Shown: piece after piece, positions 24,115 to 31,812 of the stretch
Layout of the letters: every line of letters begins with the position of its first letter
Position numbering within the stretch: the first letter of the stretch is position 1
Assembly: GCA_021810635.1 (NCBI GenBank)
Contig: JAJZIH010000005.1
Span: forward strand, 1 to 64,000
Source: Pseudomonadota bacterium
Lineage (GTDB): Bacteria > Pseudomonadota > Gammaproteobacteria > JAKAQQ01
Direction: 5' to 3'
Length of the DNA: 64,000 nt
The notes under the pieces: generated by a model
The model's input: the letters and a program-made list of their open reading frames with translations, nothing else
What the model was told of the DNA's origin: nothing
The model's database searches: none
Made by a program: the position numbers and the translations under genes

Positions 24115-24726
24115 TCAGTGCAGTCCCTGCAGGTAACTGGCCACGGCCTTGATCTGCGCCGGGGTGAGACGGGAGGCCACGTAGTTCATCATGCCGTGGT
24201 TCGTGCTTTTTCTTTTCCCATCGGCGAAAGCTTTGAGCTGATCAACCAGATAAGGCGCCCATTGGCCAGCGAGGCGGGGATAAGCCGCCGGTTCATTGCC
24301 CATGCCATCCGGGCCATGGCAGGCCATGCAGGCCGGGACCCCCTGCTTCGGCAGGCCGCCGCGGAAAATCCGCTGGCCCAAGGCCACCAACTTCGGATTT
24401 GCGGTGCCCGGTGACATCTTCTGTTTCGAAAAAAAACGGGCCACCGAATCCATCTGTGCCGGGGTCAGGGACTGGGCCATGGAGGACATGATCGGGTTGC
24501 TTCGGCGGCCCGATTTGAAGTCCTGGAGGGAATGAATGATATAGGCTTGACCTTGGCCTGCAAGTTTCGGGAAGCTCGGGGTCAGGCTGTTGCCATCCGG
24601 GCCATGGCAGGCCGAACAGACGTTCTGCGCGAGTGCGGCACCGCTGGGAGGCGCCGCCCGGGCCGGGATCGCCCCACCCAGGAAGACGAAACTCGCGCTA
24701 CACAACACGACCACCGACCACTTCAT
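24115..24726 (-). CDS. Diheme class I cytochrome c (cytochrome c4-like)
   Basis: 203 residues from ATG 24726 (MKWSVVVLC), with GAGGAG about 10 nt upstream; longer starts at 24744 or 24753 exist. A signal peptide ends near ARAAPP. Two heme motifs, CSACH and CMACH, head duplicated domains, each with a distal Met region (NPIMSSMAQSLT; MMNYVASRLT). Such periplasmic proteins donate electrons to terminal oxidases. The aa3 oxidase encoded at 46618-50176 is a plausible partner, though the genes are distant. Confidence 0.92.
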   Translation of the reverse strand: MKWSVVVLCSASFVFLGGAIPARAAPPSGAALAQNVCSACHGPDGNSLTPSFPKLAGQGQAYIIHSLQDFKSGRRSNPIMSSMAQSLTPAQMDSVARFFSKQKMSPGTANPKLVALGQRIFRGGLPKQGVPACMACHGPDGMGNEPAAYPRLAGQWAPYLVDQLKAFADGKRKSTNHGMMNYVASRLTPAQIKAVASYLQGLH

Positions 24727-24909
24727 GATCCGGGCACTCCTCATGAATAACATTTGGCTGGGAACCGGTCACATCCGCGAAGCCCTTATTGTAACCGAGG
24801 ACTCGCTCGAGCGTCCATCCGGAACCCGAAAAGGGAACCGGGGCGGGCTCCCCGCTCCTGTCCGCCCGCCATCCAGAATAGAATATCCTCCTCTCCCTCC
24901 GGTCTCCAT

Positions 24910-25908
24910 GTGAAACGATCTTTCGGACTCCCGCTCGTCATGGCTCTCGGGATCGTCGGCGTTGGCCTGATGGCGGTACTGACGGGTTTCCATGGCGTGG
25001 TGAGGGCCTTGGCCACCGCAGGTTGGGGGCTCCTCTGGCTGGTTCCCCTGCATGTCCTCACCATCGGGCTGGACAGCGAGGGGTGGCATGACCTGCTCTG
25101 GAACCAGGGCCATCGGCTGTCACGCTCCTATCTGGGATGGGCCGCCTGTGTCCGGGAGGCGATGCACGCTCTCGTGCCGATCAGTGCAGGTGGTGTGACG
25201 GCCGGGATCCGGTTGCTTTGGATCCGTGGGGTCCCTTTGGCCGAGGCCGTGGCCAACGTGGTCGTCGAGGGAACGCTCACCGTAGCGAGTGAATGGCTGC
25301 TCGTTTTCATGACCCTGATCGCAGCGCTCTGGTGGCTCCCGCGGGCCGGGCCCCTGACCGCCGTTGTGGGGCTCCTGCTTGCGGGATCTGCGGTTGTTCT
25401 GGGACTCATCTTCTGGGCCCAGATCCACGGGCGTGTTTTCGAATGGATGAGCCGCCAGAGTCTCCGCCTGAATGCGCGGTTCCGTTCCGCTGACACGCCG
25501 GCCGATCCCCAGGCGCTCAGGAGAGCGGTCCGGGGAATCTACGGCCATCCCGGGGCACTCGTCCGGTGCACCCTCTGGCAGATGGCGAGTATCGGTGCCG
25601 GCGGTGTCGAGATCTGGATCATTTTCCGTCTCATGCATCTTCCCGGTAGCCTAGTGTTTGCCCTGTTGCTCCAGTGTCTCGGGCGGGCCGTTCGTTCCTT
25701 CACGTTTTTCATGCCGGGGGGGATCGGGATCCAGGAGGCGGTCTATGCTCTCCTCGCTCCGGTCGGACAGATGAGCCCGGCCATGGGCATCGCCATCTCC
25801 CTGGCTTCGAGGTTCCGGGATCTCCTTTTCGGTCTGCCGTTGCTCGTCTCCTGGCAACGAGTCGAATCCCGGTGGATGCACCGCGAACGTGCCCGGACCG
25901 CCGGATGA
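24910..25908 (+). CDS. Flippase-like integral membrane protein (HpnL-like)
   Basis: 332 residues from GTG 24910, about eight membrane spans. WGLLWLVPLHVLTIGLDSEGW and the late GGIGIQEAVYALL and SLASRFRDLLFGLPLL match the lysylphosphatidylglycerol synthase TM/flippase-like family, and recall the hopanoid-associated HpnL. No hopanoid gene is adjacent, so substrate is open. No Shine-Dalgarno is seen before the GTG; ATG 24940 is an alternative. The preceding 156 bp (24754-24909) hold nothing recognised. Confidence 0.7.
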   Translation: MKRSFGLPLVMALGIVGVGLMAVLTGFHGVVRALATAGWGLLWLVPLHVLTIGLDSEGWHDLLWNQGHRLSRSYLGWAACVREAMHALVPISAGGVTAGIRLLWIRGVPLAEAVANVVVEGTLTVASEWLLVFMTLIAALWWLPRAGPLTAVVGLLLAGSAVVLGLIFWAQIHGRVFEWMSRQSLRLNARFRSADTPADPQALRRAVRGIYGHPGALVRCTLWQMASIGAGGVEIWIIFRLMHLPGSLVFALLLQCLGRAVRSFTFFMPGGIGIQEAVYALLAPVGQMSPAMGIAISLASRFRDLLFGLPLLVSWQRVESRWMHRERARTAG

Positions 25909-25960
25909 AGATCCGGGCATCCCGATCTGTTCCGGCCGGAGGGACAGCGGGAGGGATTCC

Positions 25961-27235
25961 GTGAGCGTTGAACCCGACCGTGGTTTCCGCGAGGTTTGGC
26001 GGTGGCGGATGGCCCGTGCGGTCCGCCACTTCGTCAACCGGGCCGGCCCGTTCTGGGATGCCGTGACGCACCGGTCGCGCCGGGTCAGCCCGGATGACCT
26101 TCTGGAAGCCGCCGCCCGGGAAACCGGTCTGTCGGATTTTGGGGATCCGCCGCTTGAGGTGCCGCTCCGGATGCTGGCCGAATCTATTGCCCACGAGGCC
26201 CGGCTCAGCCATCTCGGCAGGTTGGGCTTCCACTGGGACACGTTCCGGCTGCTCGTGAACCGGCTCTGGATCACGGAGACCCTGAAGCGTTACCCCGAAG
26301 TGGGTCAGGAGCGCATCGAATCCCCGGTCTTCATCACGGGCCTGCCGCGGACTGCCAGTACCTTCCTGCAGACCCTGTTTCTACAGGATCCGGCCAACCG
26401 GTCCCCGCGGGTCTGGGAGGTCACCTATCCGCGTCCGGGCAGGGGCCGGCCCCTGGATTTTCGGGTCTGGCAACGGAAAGTCAAGCACGAGCTCACCTGG
26501 CTCGACTTTCTGGAGCCCGACTTCCAGAGCGTCTATCCGATCGCTTGGGATTCTCCCCAGGAATGCAGTGAAATCCTGAGTCACAGCTTCGAGAGCTATC
26601 GGTTCGATACCACCTACGAGATCCCCTCCTACCTGCGGTGGATGGACCGCCGGGACCCGGACCCGGCCCATGTACTCCACCGCCGCTTCCTACAGTTACT
26701 GCAGTTCCAGGGGGGGGCGGGACGCTGGGTGCTCAAGGCCCCTGACCACATTTTTTCGCTGGGTGCTCTTCTTGAGACCTATCCGGATGCGCGCGTCATC
26801 GTGACCCATCGCGATCCGGCATCCGTTCTGCCGTCGGTGGTGGCTCTGACAGCGCTCCTGCATGGTCTGTTCAGCGATGCGCTGAGCCTGGACCAGGTCC
26901 GGCACAAGGTGACGGAACGCTGGATCGAAGGGGCGCGACGGATTGTTGCCTTCACGGAAACGCCGGTCAACCCGGAGGTTCGCGTGACCCATGTTTTTTA
27001 CGACGAGTTGACGCAGGATCCCATGAGAATCATGGAGCGACTCTACGGGTTTTTGGGCTGGGCTTGGACGGAGGAAACGCCTGCGGCTATCGTCGATTAC
27101 CTCAACCGATCGCGGGCCGGTCGCTACCCTCCCAACCGCTTCCAGGGGGAACTCGCGGACCTCATGCCACCCCCCCTCGTCCGCGAACAGTTTGCCCGCT
27201 ACCTCATGACCTTCGGAATCCGCGCCGAGGCCTGA
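25961..27235 (+). CDS. Sulfotransferase family protein
   Basis: 424 residues from GTG 25961, chosen because GGGAGG lies 5 nt upstream. The PAPS-binding loops are visible: FITGLPRTASTFLQTLF (5'-phosphosulfate) and ARVIVTHRDPASVLPS (3'-phosphate). It resembles Sulfotransfer_3 proteins, which sulfate lipids, sterols or carbohydrates. The N-terminal 100 residues are extra to the catalytic core. Fifty-two bases separate it from the flippase-like gene, suggesting the pair modifies and moves a lipid, which is inference. Confidence 0.85.
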   Translation: MSVEPDRGFREVWRWRMARAVRHFVNRAGPFWDAVTHRSRRVSPDDLLEAAARETGLSDFGDPPLEVPLRMLAESIAHEARLSHLGRLGFHWDTFRLLVNRLWITETLKRYPEVGQERIESPVFITGLPRTASTFLQTLFLQDPANRSPRVWEVTYPRPGRGRPLDFRVWQRKVKHELTWLDFLEPDFQSVYPIAWDSPQECSEILSHSFESYRFDTTYEIPSYLRWMDRRDPDPAHVLHRRFLQLLQFQGGAGRWVLKAPDHIFSLGALLETYPDARVIVTHRDPASVLPSVVALTALLHGLFSDALSLDQVRHKVTERWIEGARRIVAFTETPVNPEVRVTHVFYDELTQDPMRIMERLYGFLGWAWTEETPAAIVDYLNRSRAGRYPPNRFQGELADLMPPPLVREQFARYLMTFGIRAEA

Positions 27236-27469
27236 TCCGCACCGGTTGCAGCGGACCAAAAGTGATTGGCAACGGAGTTGAAGGAGAAAGATGATCGCCG
27301 TTTCAGCCGGATATGAACCCGTTTCTCCACGGGAGCACCGGTCTATTTGGGGACAGCGGTGTCCCTCCGCTTGACAAATCTCGGGGGGCAGAATCGAAAA
27401 TAGCTGGGTAACTCTACCCGGCTGGCATTGGAAACAATCACTCGCGGATGACACGAAGGAGGTTTTGCA

Positions 27470-27655
27470 ATGAACATCAAGAGACCTCCAGTCGGTCAAG
27501 TTCTTCTCTTTTTCCCATTCCTAGTGTCCCTGCTTTTTGGCGCAGCCATTGCGGGCGTTGGACCCATTCACGTTACGCCTGCTTGTACAAGGCCTCCGAT
27601 TCAAAAGGGAGCCTGTCTTAGCCAGCAAGGCCACTGGGTCTGCTATAAGGAATAA
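27470..27655 (+). CDS. Small secreted protein of unknown function, three cysteines
   Basis: 61 residues: a basic N-terminus, a strong hydrophobic signal (VLLFFPFLVSLLFGAAIAG) and a ~33-residue mature part with three Cys and a terminal GHWVCYKE. AAGGAGG seven bases before the ATG is one of the best ribosome sites in the window. Upstream is a hairpin GCTGGGTA-ACTC-TACCCGGC (27404-27422). Codons such as AGA, CTA and ACA are rarer in neighbours, suggesting different origin. I do not recognise it; a signalling, toxin-like or envelope role are all possible. Confidence 0.65.
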   Translation: MNIKRPPVGQVLLFFPFLVSLLFGAAIAGVGPIHVTPACTRPPIQKGACLSQQGHWVCYKE

Positions 27656-27766
27656 GTTTCACAGCTGTCAGCTGTACCACCGGTTCATTCGTCATCGGGT
27701 GATACAGGTGGTATGCTGCCTTTATCGTTCCTGACCATCAAGGTAAGTTAAGGAGGATGGGCTCTG

Positions 27767-28471
27767 TTGGACCCTCACCGACATCGGTATTTGCTGGATT
27801 TTGGAGAAAGGTTTGGTCGCGGCGTCGGGAAGCTGTTACTGCTTTGCCTTGTCGTAATCGTGGCCGTACCTCTGGCCTGGGCCGGAACCGCGGCTCCCCT
27901 CACGGCATCGCATACCCACAGGCGGCACCCAGGGCAGACGGTGCATCCCGTCTGGCGGACCACCAAGCTCGGTCGTATCCTGGTCATCGGGCACCGGGTC
28001 CGGATCCCCCAGCCCGTCGTCTTCGAGATCATCAAGGCGGCCTTGAACCGTACCTGGTCGACCTCGGCCCGGGACCGCAACCAGATCGTCTGCCAGTTCC
28101 GCTATCCTTTGGGTTCCCATCTCAAGGACCAGGCGGTCCTCTTCTGCCAGACCAACAATGAACACTTCCAGTTTCGGGAAAGACACTGGTTCATGAACTA
28201 CAAGAAAACTATTCTGGGCCCTCTTGAGTTCCAGGAGTTCCAGACCGACCAGATGCACTTGGTGGACCCGAACCACCTGCGGCGGCTTTTGGCCAGGCTG
28301 CCAGCCGCGAACGGGCGTTACGAGTTCGAGGTCACGAAGCATGGCCACCCGGCCTCCGAGTGGTTCATGAACCGGGGTCGGCTGGTCAAGGTGATCTATT
28401 TCAGGAAAAAGTCAAAGGGAGGCGCGACGATCCAGCCGAAGCTGGGTCAGTCGATCAGACGGGCCGAATAA
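27767..28471 (+). CDS. Unrecognised exported protein
   Basis: 234 residues beginning at TTG 27767, ten bases after AGGAGG; an ATG abutting that AGGAGG opens a different frame and is less likely. Residues 22-45 form a signal (LLLLCLVVIVAVPLAWAGTAAP). The mature part is basic, with VCQFRYPLGSHLKDQAVLFCQTNNEHF and an EWFMNRGRLVKVIYF end, perhaps a small beta-rich fold with one Cys pair. No family was recognised. It follows the small secreted protein by 111 nt containing an inverted repeat TACCACC/GGTGGTA. Confidence 0.6.
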   Translation: MDPHRHRYLLDFGERFGRGVGKLLLLCLVVIVAVPLAWAGTAAPLTASHTHRRHPGQTVHPVWRTTKLGRILVIGHRVRIPQPVVFEIIKAALNRTWSTSARDRNQIVCQFRYPLGSHLKDQAVLFCQTNNEHFQFRERHWFMNYKKTILGPLEFQEFQTDQMHLVDPNHLRRLLARLPAANGRYEFEVTKHGHPASEWFMNRGRLVKVIYFRKKSKGGATIQPKLGQSIRRAE

Positions 28472-28968
28472 TGCGGAGGATCGGATCACGGGAACCGGCC
28501 CGCTGGCCTCCGGATTGATGCTGGATGGCGGGGCTACTGTCCAGAGCGAGCCCGAGGACGATTCCGGGACCGTGAAGACCGGTTGTTTGTACTCCGGTTG
28601 CCCCCTGTTACTTTCAACCTGAAGGGGGTTCATCGCGATTACCGTCAATCGGGATGAAAACGGAGACCGGTAAATGAAGGATGCCACGCCGACTCCACAG
28701 AATCGGACTAGATTCAGCCCCGAAAACTGAACCACTCCCATCCCCGGGGTGTCCTTTGCGAGTGTCCCGCCGGCGGGCCGGCTCTGGCCAAGTCAGGGGT
28801 CCCCGTCCGGAAATCCCCAGGAGGGGGAGTCACGGGGCAACCGTGGGGTTGGATTGCCCACATTCTTCCGTTGCAGAGGACCGGCCTCCCTCCCTCCCCC
28901 AAACCACCCCAACGCACCCTCACCGAATAACAACCTTGGCCTTTTCAAACCTCAGTAACTGTATATAC
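28472..28968. other. Gap without a convincing gene
   Basis: About 500 bp with no frame carrying a ribosome site or recognised domain on either strand. A hairpin CCCCCT/AGGGGG with a 16-nt loop occurs at 28601-28628 but has no T tract. The longest reverse-strand frame (from 28741) lacks similarity I can name. It may be decayed coding sequence. Confidence 0.5.
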
Positions 28969-29001
28969 AAAAAAAGCCCCGGCGCAAGAGTTGCCGGGGC
29001 T
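28969..29001 (-). terminator. Intrinsic terminator (minus strand) after polA / candidate sRNA
   Basis: On the minus strand AGCCCCGGC, a 9-nt loop and GCCGGGGCT are followed by seven T. The 9-bp GC-rich stem and T tract make this the clearest intrinsic terminator here. It stands about 120 nt beyond the polA stop, beyond two further hairpins. Confidence 0.85.
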
Positions 29002-29090
29002 AGGCACCGTCGGCCTGGTTGGGGAAACCAGCCGACGTTTCCGCTCAGGGAGGAGAGCGGAAAAGAACCGATACTCTTATGACCCGAGGT
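28969..29090 (-). ncRNA. Candidate small RNA downstream of polA with anti-Shine-Dalgarno loop
   Basis: Between the polA stop and the terminator the minus strand folds into three consecutive hairpins. The first has a perfect 9-bp stem TTTCCGCTC/GAGCGGAAA (29063-29038) closing the loop TCCTCCCT, complementary to ribosome binding sites. The second pairs GTCGGC-TGGTT with AACCA-GCCGAC (29036-29009, one bulge). The third is the terminator. In E. coli (spf, Spot 42) and Pseudomonas (ErsA) a small RNA gene also follows polA. The 5' end and promoter are not clear, so a processed polA 3' UTR is equally possible. Confidence 0.5.
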
Positions 29091-29121
29091 CTTCCGGGAA
29101 GTTCCCCGCTGGGGATGGGGG

Positions 29122-31812
29122 TCAGTGGGCGAGCCCCCAGTTGGGGCCGATTCCCACTTGGACGACCAGGGGGACCGTCAATTCGACCGCTGAGGTCATT
29201 TCGTGGCTGATCCCCGCCGCCACCGCATCCAGCTCCTCCTCGGGAACTTCAAGGACGAGTTCGTCGTGGACCTGGAGAATGAGCCGGGACCTGCAGCCAT
29301 GGTCCCGAAGCCACCGTTCGGCGCCGATCATGGCGATCTTGATGATATCGGCCGCCGTGCCCTGCATGGGGGCATTGATGGCGGCCCGTTCGGCAGCCTG
29401 CCGCACTCCGGGAGAACGGCTTTCGAGGTCGGGCAGGTATAGCCTTCGGCCGAGCAGGGTCTCGACAAAGCCCTGCCGATGCGCCTGCTTCCGGGTCGCG
29501 TCGAGAAAATCGCGGACCCCCGAATAGCGTGAAAAGTAGCGGTCCATGTAGCTTTTGGCCAGCTCGCGGGACAGCCCGAGCTGCCGGCCGAGTCCAAAAG
29601 CGGACATGCCGTAAATGAGTCCGAAGTTGATGGTCTTGGCCAGGCGGCGTTGCTCTTCGCCCACGGTCTCGGGCGGGATTCCGAACAGCTCCGCCGCGGT
29701 GGCCCGGTGGACGTCCTGCTGGGCCGCGAAGGCGGCCACGAGGCCCGGATCTCTCGAGAAATGAGCCAGGATCCGAAGTTCGATCTGGGAGTAATCCAGG
29801 GAGACAATCCGGGCCCCGGGCCCGGCGACGAAGGCCTGCCGGATCCGCTGGCCGGCGGCGGTGCGGACGGGGATGTTCTGCAGGTTGGGATCCGAAGAGG
29901 ACAACCGGCCGGTGGCGGTGACCGCCTGATGGTAGCTCGTGTGGATCCGCCCGGTCCGGGGATTGATTTCCTGGGGCAGTTTTTCTGTATAGGTCGACCG
30001 GAGCTTGGCCAAGCTCCGGTATTCAAGGATCAGACGCGGCAGGGCGTGGTGGGCCGCGAGTTCCTCGAGCACAGCCTCCGAAGTCGAACGCTGGCCACCC
30101 GGTGTTTTGCCCTGCGCGGGAATGCCCAGTTCGTCGAACAGAATGATCTGTAGTTGTTTGGGCGAATCCGGGTTGAATTCCCGGCCGGCGAGTTCATAGG
30201 CCTGGTTGCGCAAGCCCTGCAGGGCGGAGTCGAGGTCTCGTGACTGTTCGGCGAGCTGTTCGCGGTCGATCCGGACGCCGGTGCGCTCCATCCCGAACAA
30301 CACCGAGGATAGCGGCATTTCAACGGATTCCACCAGCCGGACAAGCGCGGGGTTGGGTTCCAGTGCCTGGCTCAGGAGCCGGTGGAGTCGCCAGGTGATC
30401 CACGCGTCTGCCCCGGCATAGGCGGTCGCCTGGTCGAGTGGAATCTCGTCAAAAGTTTTCCGGTTCGGGCCACGGCCGGTCAGCGATTCGAAGGGAGTCT
30501 TGTGAATGCCGAGATAGCGTGAGGCCACCGAATCGAGATCATGTCGTCCCGCTGTACTGTTCAGGACATAGCTCTCGAGCATGGTGTCGGAGCGGATACC
30601 GGCCAGCGCAATGCCCTCGTTCATGAAAACATGGCGGTCGTACTTGATGTGGTGCCCGACCTTTGGGCGGGCCGGATCCTCGAGCAGGGGCCGCAGGGCC
30701 GCGAGGACTTCGGTGACCGGGAGTTGGGGGAGGTGGGCGGCTTCGGGTTTGTGCCGGAGCGGCAGGTACGCCGCTTCCTCGCCATTCAGACTGAAGGACA
30801 GACCGACGAGACGGGCTTCCAGGTAGTTGAGGGAAGTGGTCTCGGTATCAAGCGCGATCAGATCCGCGCTGGCCAGCCGTTCCCGCCACTGTTCGAACTC
30901 AGCCCACTCGGTGATGCAACGGGAATGTCCTGTGCCGGGGGGAGGGGGAGGAGCCGGAGCCTCCGGTGCCGCCGGATCATGGATCTCGAGCGCGGCCAGG
31001 ACGTCGTTGAGTCGCGCGGGGTCGGGCGGGACAAGGCGAAGGGTTTCTACCCGCTCTTCAAGGGGAACCTCGCAGTCCAGGGTGACGAGCCGGTGGGCGA
31101 GATCCAACGTTCCGCGGCCCTCCCGCAGGGCCCGGCCCGCCTGCCCGGGAATGGCCTCCCGGTGCGCCCAGAGGCGGTCCAAGGATCCGTACTGCTCGAG
31201 CCAGCGGGCCGCCGTTTTGGGGCCGACGCCGGGAATGCCGGGAATGTTGTCCGAGCTGTCGCCGACGAGGGCGAGATAGTCGACCATCTGCTCCGGCCAG
31301 ACTCCGTAATGCGCCTTGACGCCGTCCCGGTCCAGCACATCCCGCGTCACCGGATTGACGAGGGTAATGCCTCCGGCGACGAGCTGAGCGAGATCCTTGT
31401 CGGGGCTGAATAAAAGGACCTGGAGTCCCCGGTTGCGGGCCGCGCAGGCCAGTGTGCCGAGCACGTCGTCGGCTTCCACCCCGGGGATCTGGACCACCGG
31501 GAAGCCCATGGCCTTCAGTGCCGCCTGCAGCGGCGCAATCTGGACGCCGAGCGATTCCGGCATGGGAGGGCGCTGGGCCTTGTACTGGGGAAAGAGGGTG
31601 TGCCGAAAGGATCGGCCGGGGCTGTCAAACACGATCGCGGCCCATTGCGCTGGATGCTGCTCGCGCAGGTTGCGCACCATGTTGAGCACTCCCTTGACGG
31701 CCCCGGTGGGAAATCCGCTGGCGGTGGCGAGCGGAGGAAGCGCGTGGAAGGCCCGATAAAGGTAGGCGGTCCCATCAACCAGGAGGATCAGAGAGTCTTC
31801 AGCGGCGGACAT
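29122..31812 (-). CDS. polA: DNA polymerase I
   Basis: 896 residues with all three domains. The 5' nuclease begins ILLVDGTAYLYRAFHALPP; the 3'-5' proofreading domain keeps DLIALDTETTSLNY, a variant GHHIKYD (usually with Asn) and YAGADAW; the polymerase has motif A DYSQIELRILAHFS, motif B RRLAKTINFGLIYG and motif C LQVHDELVLEV. Proofreading may be altered by the His for Asn change in exo II. It overlaps the lptM gene by 14 nt. Confidence 0.97.
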   Translation of the reverse strand: MSAAEDSLILLVDGTAYLYRAFHALPPLATASGFPTGAVKGVLNMVRNLREQHPAQWAAIVFDSPGRSFRHTLFPQYKAQRPPMPESLGVQIAPLQAALKAMGFPVVQIPGVEADDVLGTLACAARNRGLQVLLFSPDKDLAQLVAGGITLVNPVTRDVLDRDGVKAHYGVWPEQMVDYLALVGDSSDNIPGIPGVGPKTAARWLEQYGSLDRLWAHREAIPGQAGRALREGRGTLDLAHRLVTLDCEVPLEERVETLRLVPPDPARLNDVLAALEIHDPAAPEAPAPPPPPGTGHSRCITEWAEFEQWRERLASADLIALDTETTSLNYLEARLVGLSFSLNGEEAAYLPLRHKPEAAHLPQLPVTEVLAALRPLLEDPARPKVGHHIKYDRHVFMNEGIALAGIRSDTMLESYVLNSTAGRHDLDSVASRYLGIHKTPFESLTGRGPNRKTFDEIPLDQATAYAGADAWITWRLHRLLSQALEPNPALVRLVESVEMPLSSVLFGMERTGVRIDREQLAEQSRDLDSALQGLRNQAYELAGREFNPDSPKQLQIILFDELGIPAQGKTPGGQRSTSEAVLEELAAHHALPRLILEYRSLAKLRSTYTEKLPQEINPRTGRIHTSYHQAVTATGRLSSSDPNLQNIPVRTAAGQRIRQAFVAGPGARIVSLDYSQIELRILAHFSRDPGLVAAFAAQQDVHRATAAELFGIPPETVGEEQRRLAKTINFGLIYGMSAFGLGRQLGLSRELAKSYMDRYFSRYSGVRDFLDATRKQAHRQGFVETLLGRRLYLPDLESRSPGVRQAAERAAINAPMQGTAADIIKIAMIGAERWLRDHGCRSRLILQVHDELVLEVPEEELDAVAAGISHEMTSAVELTVPLVVQVGIGPNWGLAH

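Follow-up and report, generated by a model that had tools for sequence, protein, structure and literature searches.

A predicted small RNA gene downstream of polA

The minus strand of the window (the whole stretch of DNA that was analysed, 64,000 nucleotides) contains, downstream of polA, two hairpins followed by an intrinsic terminator, which are read directly from the sequence (Table 1). An initial annotation had reported a 9-bp hairpin with the loop UCCUCCCU, a second hairpin and a 9-bp terminator with seven T, and its coordinates and description proved exact on inspection of the sequence and on folding. Folding yields these three stems at -56.9 kcal/mol with a z-score of -5.0, a stability that none of 200 shuffled sequences reached. 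The terminator is missing from the list of the terminator scan because its 9-nt loop exceeds the 8-nt maximum that the scan allows. Hairpin 1 is preceded by a predicted promoter, GAACTT-N16-TCATA, that the initial annotation had overlooked and of which the -35 element begins 17 nt past the polA stop codon (the stop ends at 29122). This arrangement is the form of RpoE/AlgU promoters. The search for a second copy in the same genome returned only a weak match (G000:C6:94553) that consists of just a terminator.

Table 1. Features of the predicted small RNA locus and its flanking genes (window coordinates)
Feature	Position	Strand	Basis or remark
-35 element GAACTT, predicted RpoE/AlgU-type promoter	29099..29104	minus	same element in 8 family genomes
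-10 element TCATA, 16-nt spacer	29078..29082	minus	transcription start predicted near 29072
Predicted small RNA, ~104 nt	28969..29072	minus	predicted start; end at the U-tract; anti-hemB model match 28969-29063
Hairpin 1, 9-bp stem	29038..29063	minus	sequence, folding; covariation across families
Hairpin 1 arms and loop, TTTCCGCTC-TCCTCCCT-GAGCGGAAA	29063..29038	minus	sequence
Hairpin 1 loop UCCUCCCU, anti-Shine-Dalgarno type	29047..29054	minus	invariant in six genomes, two genera
Hairpin 2, loop UCCCC (DNA TCCCC)	29008..29037	minus	5/11 pairs with compensatory changes, six family genomes
Intrinsic terminator (stem of 9 bp, then seven U)	28969..29001	minus	sequence, folding, alignment
Terminator stem AGCCCCGGC-n9-GCCGGGGCT	29001..28975	minus	sequence
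Seven-T tract	28975..28969	minus	sequence
polA, upstream neighbour, same direction	29122..31812	minus	PF00476, 526.8 bits
c4-like cytochrome c with two haems; distal flank of the slot presumed ancestral	24115..24753	minus	

Conservation within the family

The same element was found by blastn in five relatives. Because hairpin 1 and its loop are identical in the six aligned genomes (two genera) and hairpin 2 keeps its pairing with compensatory changes at 5 pairs, the hairpins are evidently more than a chance occurrence; GAACTT-N16-TC is likewise present in all six. In a third genus (g3), represented by G003 and G005, polA is followed by a diverged form of the RNA that keeps the promoter, so that an RNA of this kind is present in this position in 8 of 9 family genomes (the slot of the ninth, G007, was left out of the reading). 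This comparison of polA-downstream regions, which the initial annotation had proposed, supports its claim of a small RNA gene with an anti-Shine-Dalgarno loop in the polA slot, conserved with covariation, and the locus is very probably a real small RNA gene. The third loop (AACUCUUGC, in the terminator) is not C-rich in the genus of the window, unlike that of most of the family.

Class-wide distribution and promoter

The slots downstream of polA were taken from ~110 further genomes, partly incomplete, of one class, which the presence of ErsA and sX13 in some of its genomes suggests to be the Gammaproteobacteria as defined by GTDB. Among 116 class-wide slots, both the promoter and the loop hairpin were present in 21, only the promoter in 9, only the hairpin in 10 and neither in 76, a co-occurrence with a Fisher p of 3.6e-9; both features together were found in 0/116 and 0/109 control stretches (the reverse strand, and 500-820 nt further on). 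A covariance model, R1, was built from 25 slot RNAs including the window locus. In its alignment, 14 of 17 pairs show compensatory changes, a count that none of 500 shuffles equalled but that is partly circular, most members having been chosen by the presence of the hairpin; when members were chosen from the promoter and a 6-nt motif alone, a script found stems of at least 6 bp in 15 of 23.

R1 has matches in 122 of 229 genomes. Sixty-two matches, from 59 genomes, are located at most 1.5 kb downstream of polA and on its strand, 40 of them in genomes outside the training set, and in a sample of the phylum the ten genomes with matches were all of the same class. The window locus has the features of the R1 family: the loop hairpin, the second hairpin, the terminator, the upstream RpoE-type promoter and the slot.

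The R1 model contains no promoter sequence. Nevertheless, the strict motif GAAC[TC]-N15-17-TC stands before hairpin 1 in 29 of the 30 best R1 matches, versus 25 of 1762 control windows (1.4%), and the thirtieth has AAACTT instead of the strict -35 element. Nine of these 30, including a second copy in G135, do not follow polA, and the strict motif is present at every one of the nine. Four tandem copies of the RNA follow polA in G178 (L394); three are preceded by the strict motif, and the fourth has the promoter variant GGAACAAA...GGTCTGAC. Two adjoining copies were also observed in G114, G155 and G157. The organism itself encodes RpoE (G000:C33:34522-35079, 254 bits, above the curated cut-off); its gene is preceded by GAACTC-N16-TCATA and followed by an ORF in which an RseA-like motif, SAFLDGE, is present. 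A GAACTC promoter of the RpoE form was also found at the other six rpoE loci that were read.

These observations bear on the possibility that the hairpins belong to the 3' end of the polA transcript itself (a terminator with stabilising stems) and yield at most a processed 3'-UTR RNA. The hairpins are on the same strand, starting ~50 nt past the polA stop codon, and a scan for sigma-70-type promoters at the locus found none, as this explanation would have it. We nevertheless judge it improbable: an RpoE-type promoter is directly ahead of the RNA, the nine top matches that do not follow polA keep both RNA and promoter (several of them beside engB or the cytochrome c4 gene), the tandem copies of G178 have promoters of their own or a close variant, and termination has no need of conserved loops. 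A polA 3'-UTR product, which the initial annotation had offered as an alternative, is possible as a by-product, but as an account of the locus it is the weaker reading because the RNA has a dedicated RpoE-type promoter, which copies elsewhere than behind polA retain as well.

Gene neighbourhood of the RNA

Several displaced copies of the RNA adjoin engB or a c4-type cytochrome gene, which form the opposite side of the slot; this would follow from an ancestral gene order polA - RNA - engB - cytochrome c4, which we presume. In the window, the c4-like gene is ~4 kb from the RNA and engB was not seen adjacent to the RNA; in genus g3, the c4-like gene is directly beside the RNA. The ~4 kb between the RNA and the c4-like gene of the window (24754-28700) contain several ORFs, among them one predicted membrane protein and one that is sulfotransferase-like by eye. 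The RNA is near hemB in three loci (L382, L383 and L387), of which L382 also has engB and the cytochrome c4 gene. A fourth locus, L267, was first thought to be beside hemB; Pfam gave no support for this.

Relationship to named RNA families

At gathering cut-offs, no Rfam family has a match within the window. The models suggested by the initial annotation (spf, ErsA and the cuckoo families) all fell short of their cut-offs, and the closest family is anti-hemB (RF02837; 47.0 bits, E 2.2e-10), which is 2.5 bits below its gathering cut-off of 49.5 and aligns over its full length (model positions 1-81 of 81: hairpin, middle stem and terminator). Because R1 was trained on the window locus, it is the match of the anti-hemB model that gives this locus independent support. 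The sX13 model (RF02232) scores 25.2 bits at the locus (cut-off 50), and the ErsA / Pseudomon-1 model (RF01719, cut-off 50 bits) has no match there. Across the class, R1 loci account for 69 of the 70 strongest anti-hemB matches, 13 of 18 sub-threshold ErsA matches and 7 of 10 sub-threshold sX13 matches. Cross-matches among CU-rich RNAs can arise from composition, but composition cannot explain the placement of these matches in one slot with one promoter.

The anti-hemB RNA (Burkholderia ncS04) has the same hairpin 1 loop, CCUCCCUGAGCGG, and the same terminator as the window RNA, which differs in being behind polA and away from hemB. Among the anti-hemB-like copies, the GAACTT promoter is kept in L382 and L383 and is absent from L267 and L387, unlike the case of the window RNA; this difference may reflect a change of regulation within the group.

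ErsA is driven by sigma22 and located between polA and engB (PMC5819304, PMC8575079). It resembles the window RNA in its position behind polA and in a sigma22 promoter of the same form, and its terminator loop is C-rich; the 5' part of ErsA, with its U-rich pairing region, is different (PMC8575079). Only one genome, G169, has an ErsA match above the cut-off; this match follows polA, and its promoter is GAACTT-N17-TCATA.

The sX13 RNA of Xanthomonas acts through C-rich loops: independently of Hfq, it represses messages that carry G-rich motifs close to the start (PMC3771888). It too lies behind polA and has three stems with C-rich loops, whereas the window RNA has two C-rich loops plus the terminator loop described above, and the sX13 loops are CCCC rather than CCUCCC. 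An RpoE-type promoter was not seen in the sX13 genome G172.

Judged by its sequence, the window RNA is a further member of the ErsA / anti-hemB / sX13 kind. We lean towards the view that these three names, each used in its own lineage, denote a single small RNA of the polA-engB-cytochrome c4 slot that is ancestral, anti-Shine-Dalgarno in type and mostly under RpoE control. About half of the genomes sampled in the class would have it, mostly without annotation, and the window locus would be a typical member. In a literature search limited to one library, no paper was found that joins ErsA, anti-hemB and sX13, nor any that names both ErsA and sX13; the link seems undescribed so far, each RNA having been named piecemeal. 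The sX13 study leaves two questions about other bacteria: whether RNAs similar to sX13 are encoded at their polA loci, and whether these work in the same way (PMC3771888). To the first, the present data support the answer yes for many families, usually with an RpoE-type promoter. If this is true, Pseudomonas is one known case of an old and widespread RNA arm of the envelope-stress response, and slot, promoter and loop can serve to find such RNAs in unstudied bacteria.

The initial annotation had preferred the cuckoo RNAs over ErsA as relatives. A gammaproteobacterial RNA of the CcsR/ar14 type would share the C/U-rich loop, and the ar14 (RF02344) and CcsR1 (RF02791) models do score 28.5 and 17.0 bits at the locus; these values are far under the respective cut-offs (58.8 and 65.3), in contrast to the near-threshold score of anti-hemB, and in slot and promoter the locus resembles ErsA and anti-hemB. 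A cuckoo RNA is therefore very unlikely. An orthologue of Spot 42, the CRP-controlled carbon regulator, would occupy the same slot behind polA but is equally implausible, given 13.0 bits with the Spot_42 model (RF00021) against a cut-off of 80 and an RpoE-type promoter instead.

Predicted function

We interpret the locus, with a probability of about 0.8, as the gene of a single-copy, trans-acting RNA of ~104 nt that has its own RpoE (sigma-E/AlgU)-type promoter, would be induced by envelope stress, and would repress translation initiation by means of anti-Shine-Dalgarno loops. The structure, its conservation and covariation, the promoter motif, the slot and an rpoE gene with a like promoter are all read from the genomes; that the RNA is transcribed, depends on RpoE, pairs with mRNA and selects among messages is what we infer. 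Under envelope stress, RpoE would transcribe the predicted RNA from its own promoter in the polA-engB-c4 slot, and the intrinsic terminator would end the transcript. The two apical loops, UCCUCCCU and UCCCC, may then base-pair with selected messages at G-rich Shine-Dalgarno regions (GGGAGGA, GGGGA) and so would prevent translation from starting, a mechanism reported for sX13 in Xanthomonas (PMC3771888).

Since CCUCC, which is the core of the anti-Shine-Dalgarno sequence of 16S rRNA, is part of the hairpin 1 loop, the simplest interpretation is that the loop pairs with start regions. The initial annotation had also proposed a sponge for a GGA-binding partner; a sponge for such a protein was rejected, since GGA is absent from the conserved loops, which are rich in C and U. 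A target search with GGGAGGA-N3-9-ATG in G000 gave 31 sites, versus 12 for the reversed-pattern control. No gene with a GGGAGGA start region common to G000 and G002 (two species of the genus) was found, and therefore no target is named; the set of targets may evolve quickly or involve weaker matches. Hfq was not found in the 87%-complete G000 assembly, which is attributed to an assembly gap because 8 of 8 relatives carry Hfq.

Two further sequence features were observed at the locus. Shortly past the terminator, on the minus strand at 28883-28905, is TTTGGGGGAGGGAGGGAGGCCGG, which has four G-runs (G-quadruplex-like) and is complementary to the CU-rich loop. In the stem of hairpin 1, CCGCTC/GAGCGG (window 29041-29060; alignment A3 columns 4-9 / 20-25) is conserved in sequence between distant families to a greater degree than pairing requires, and is perhaps a site for a protein or an RNase.
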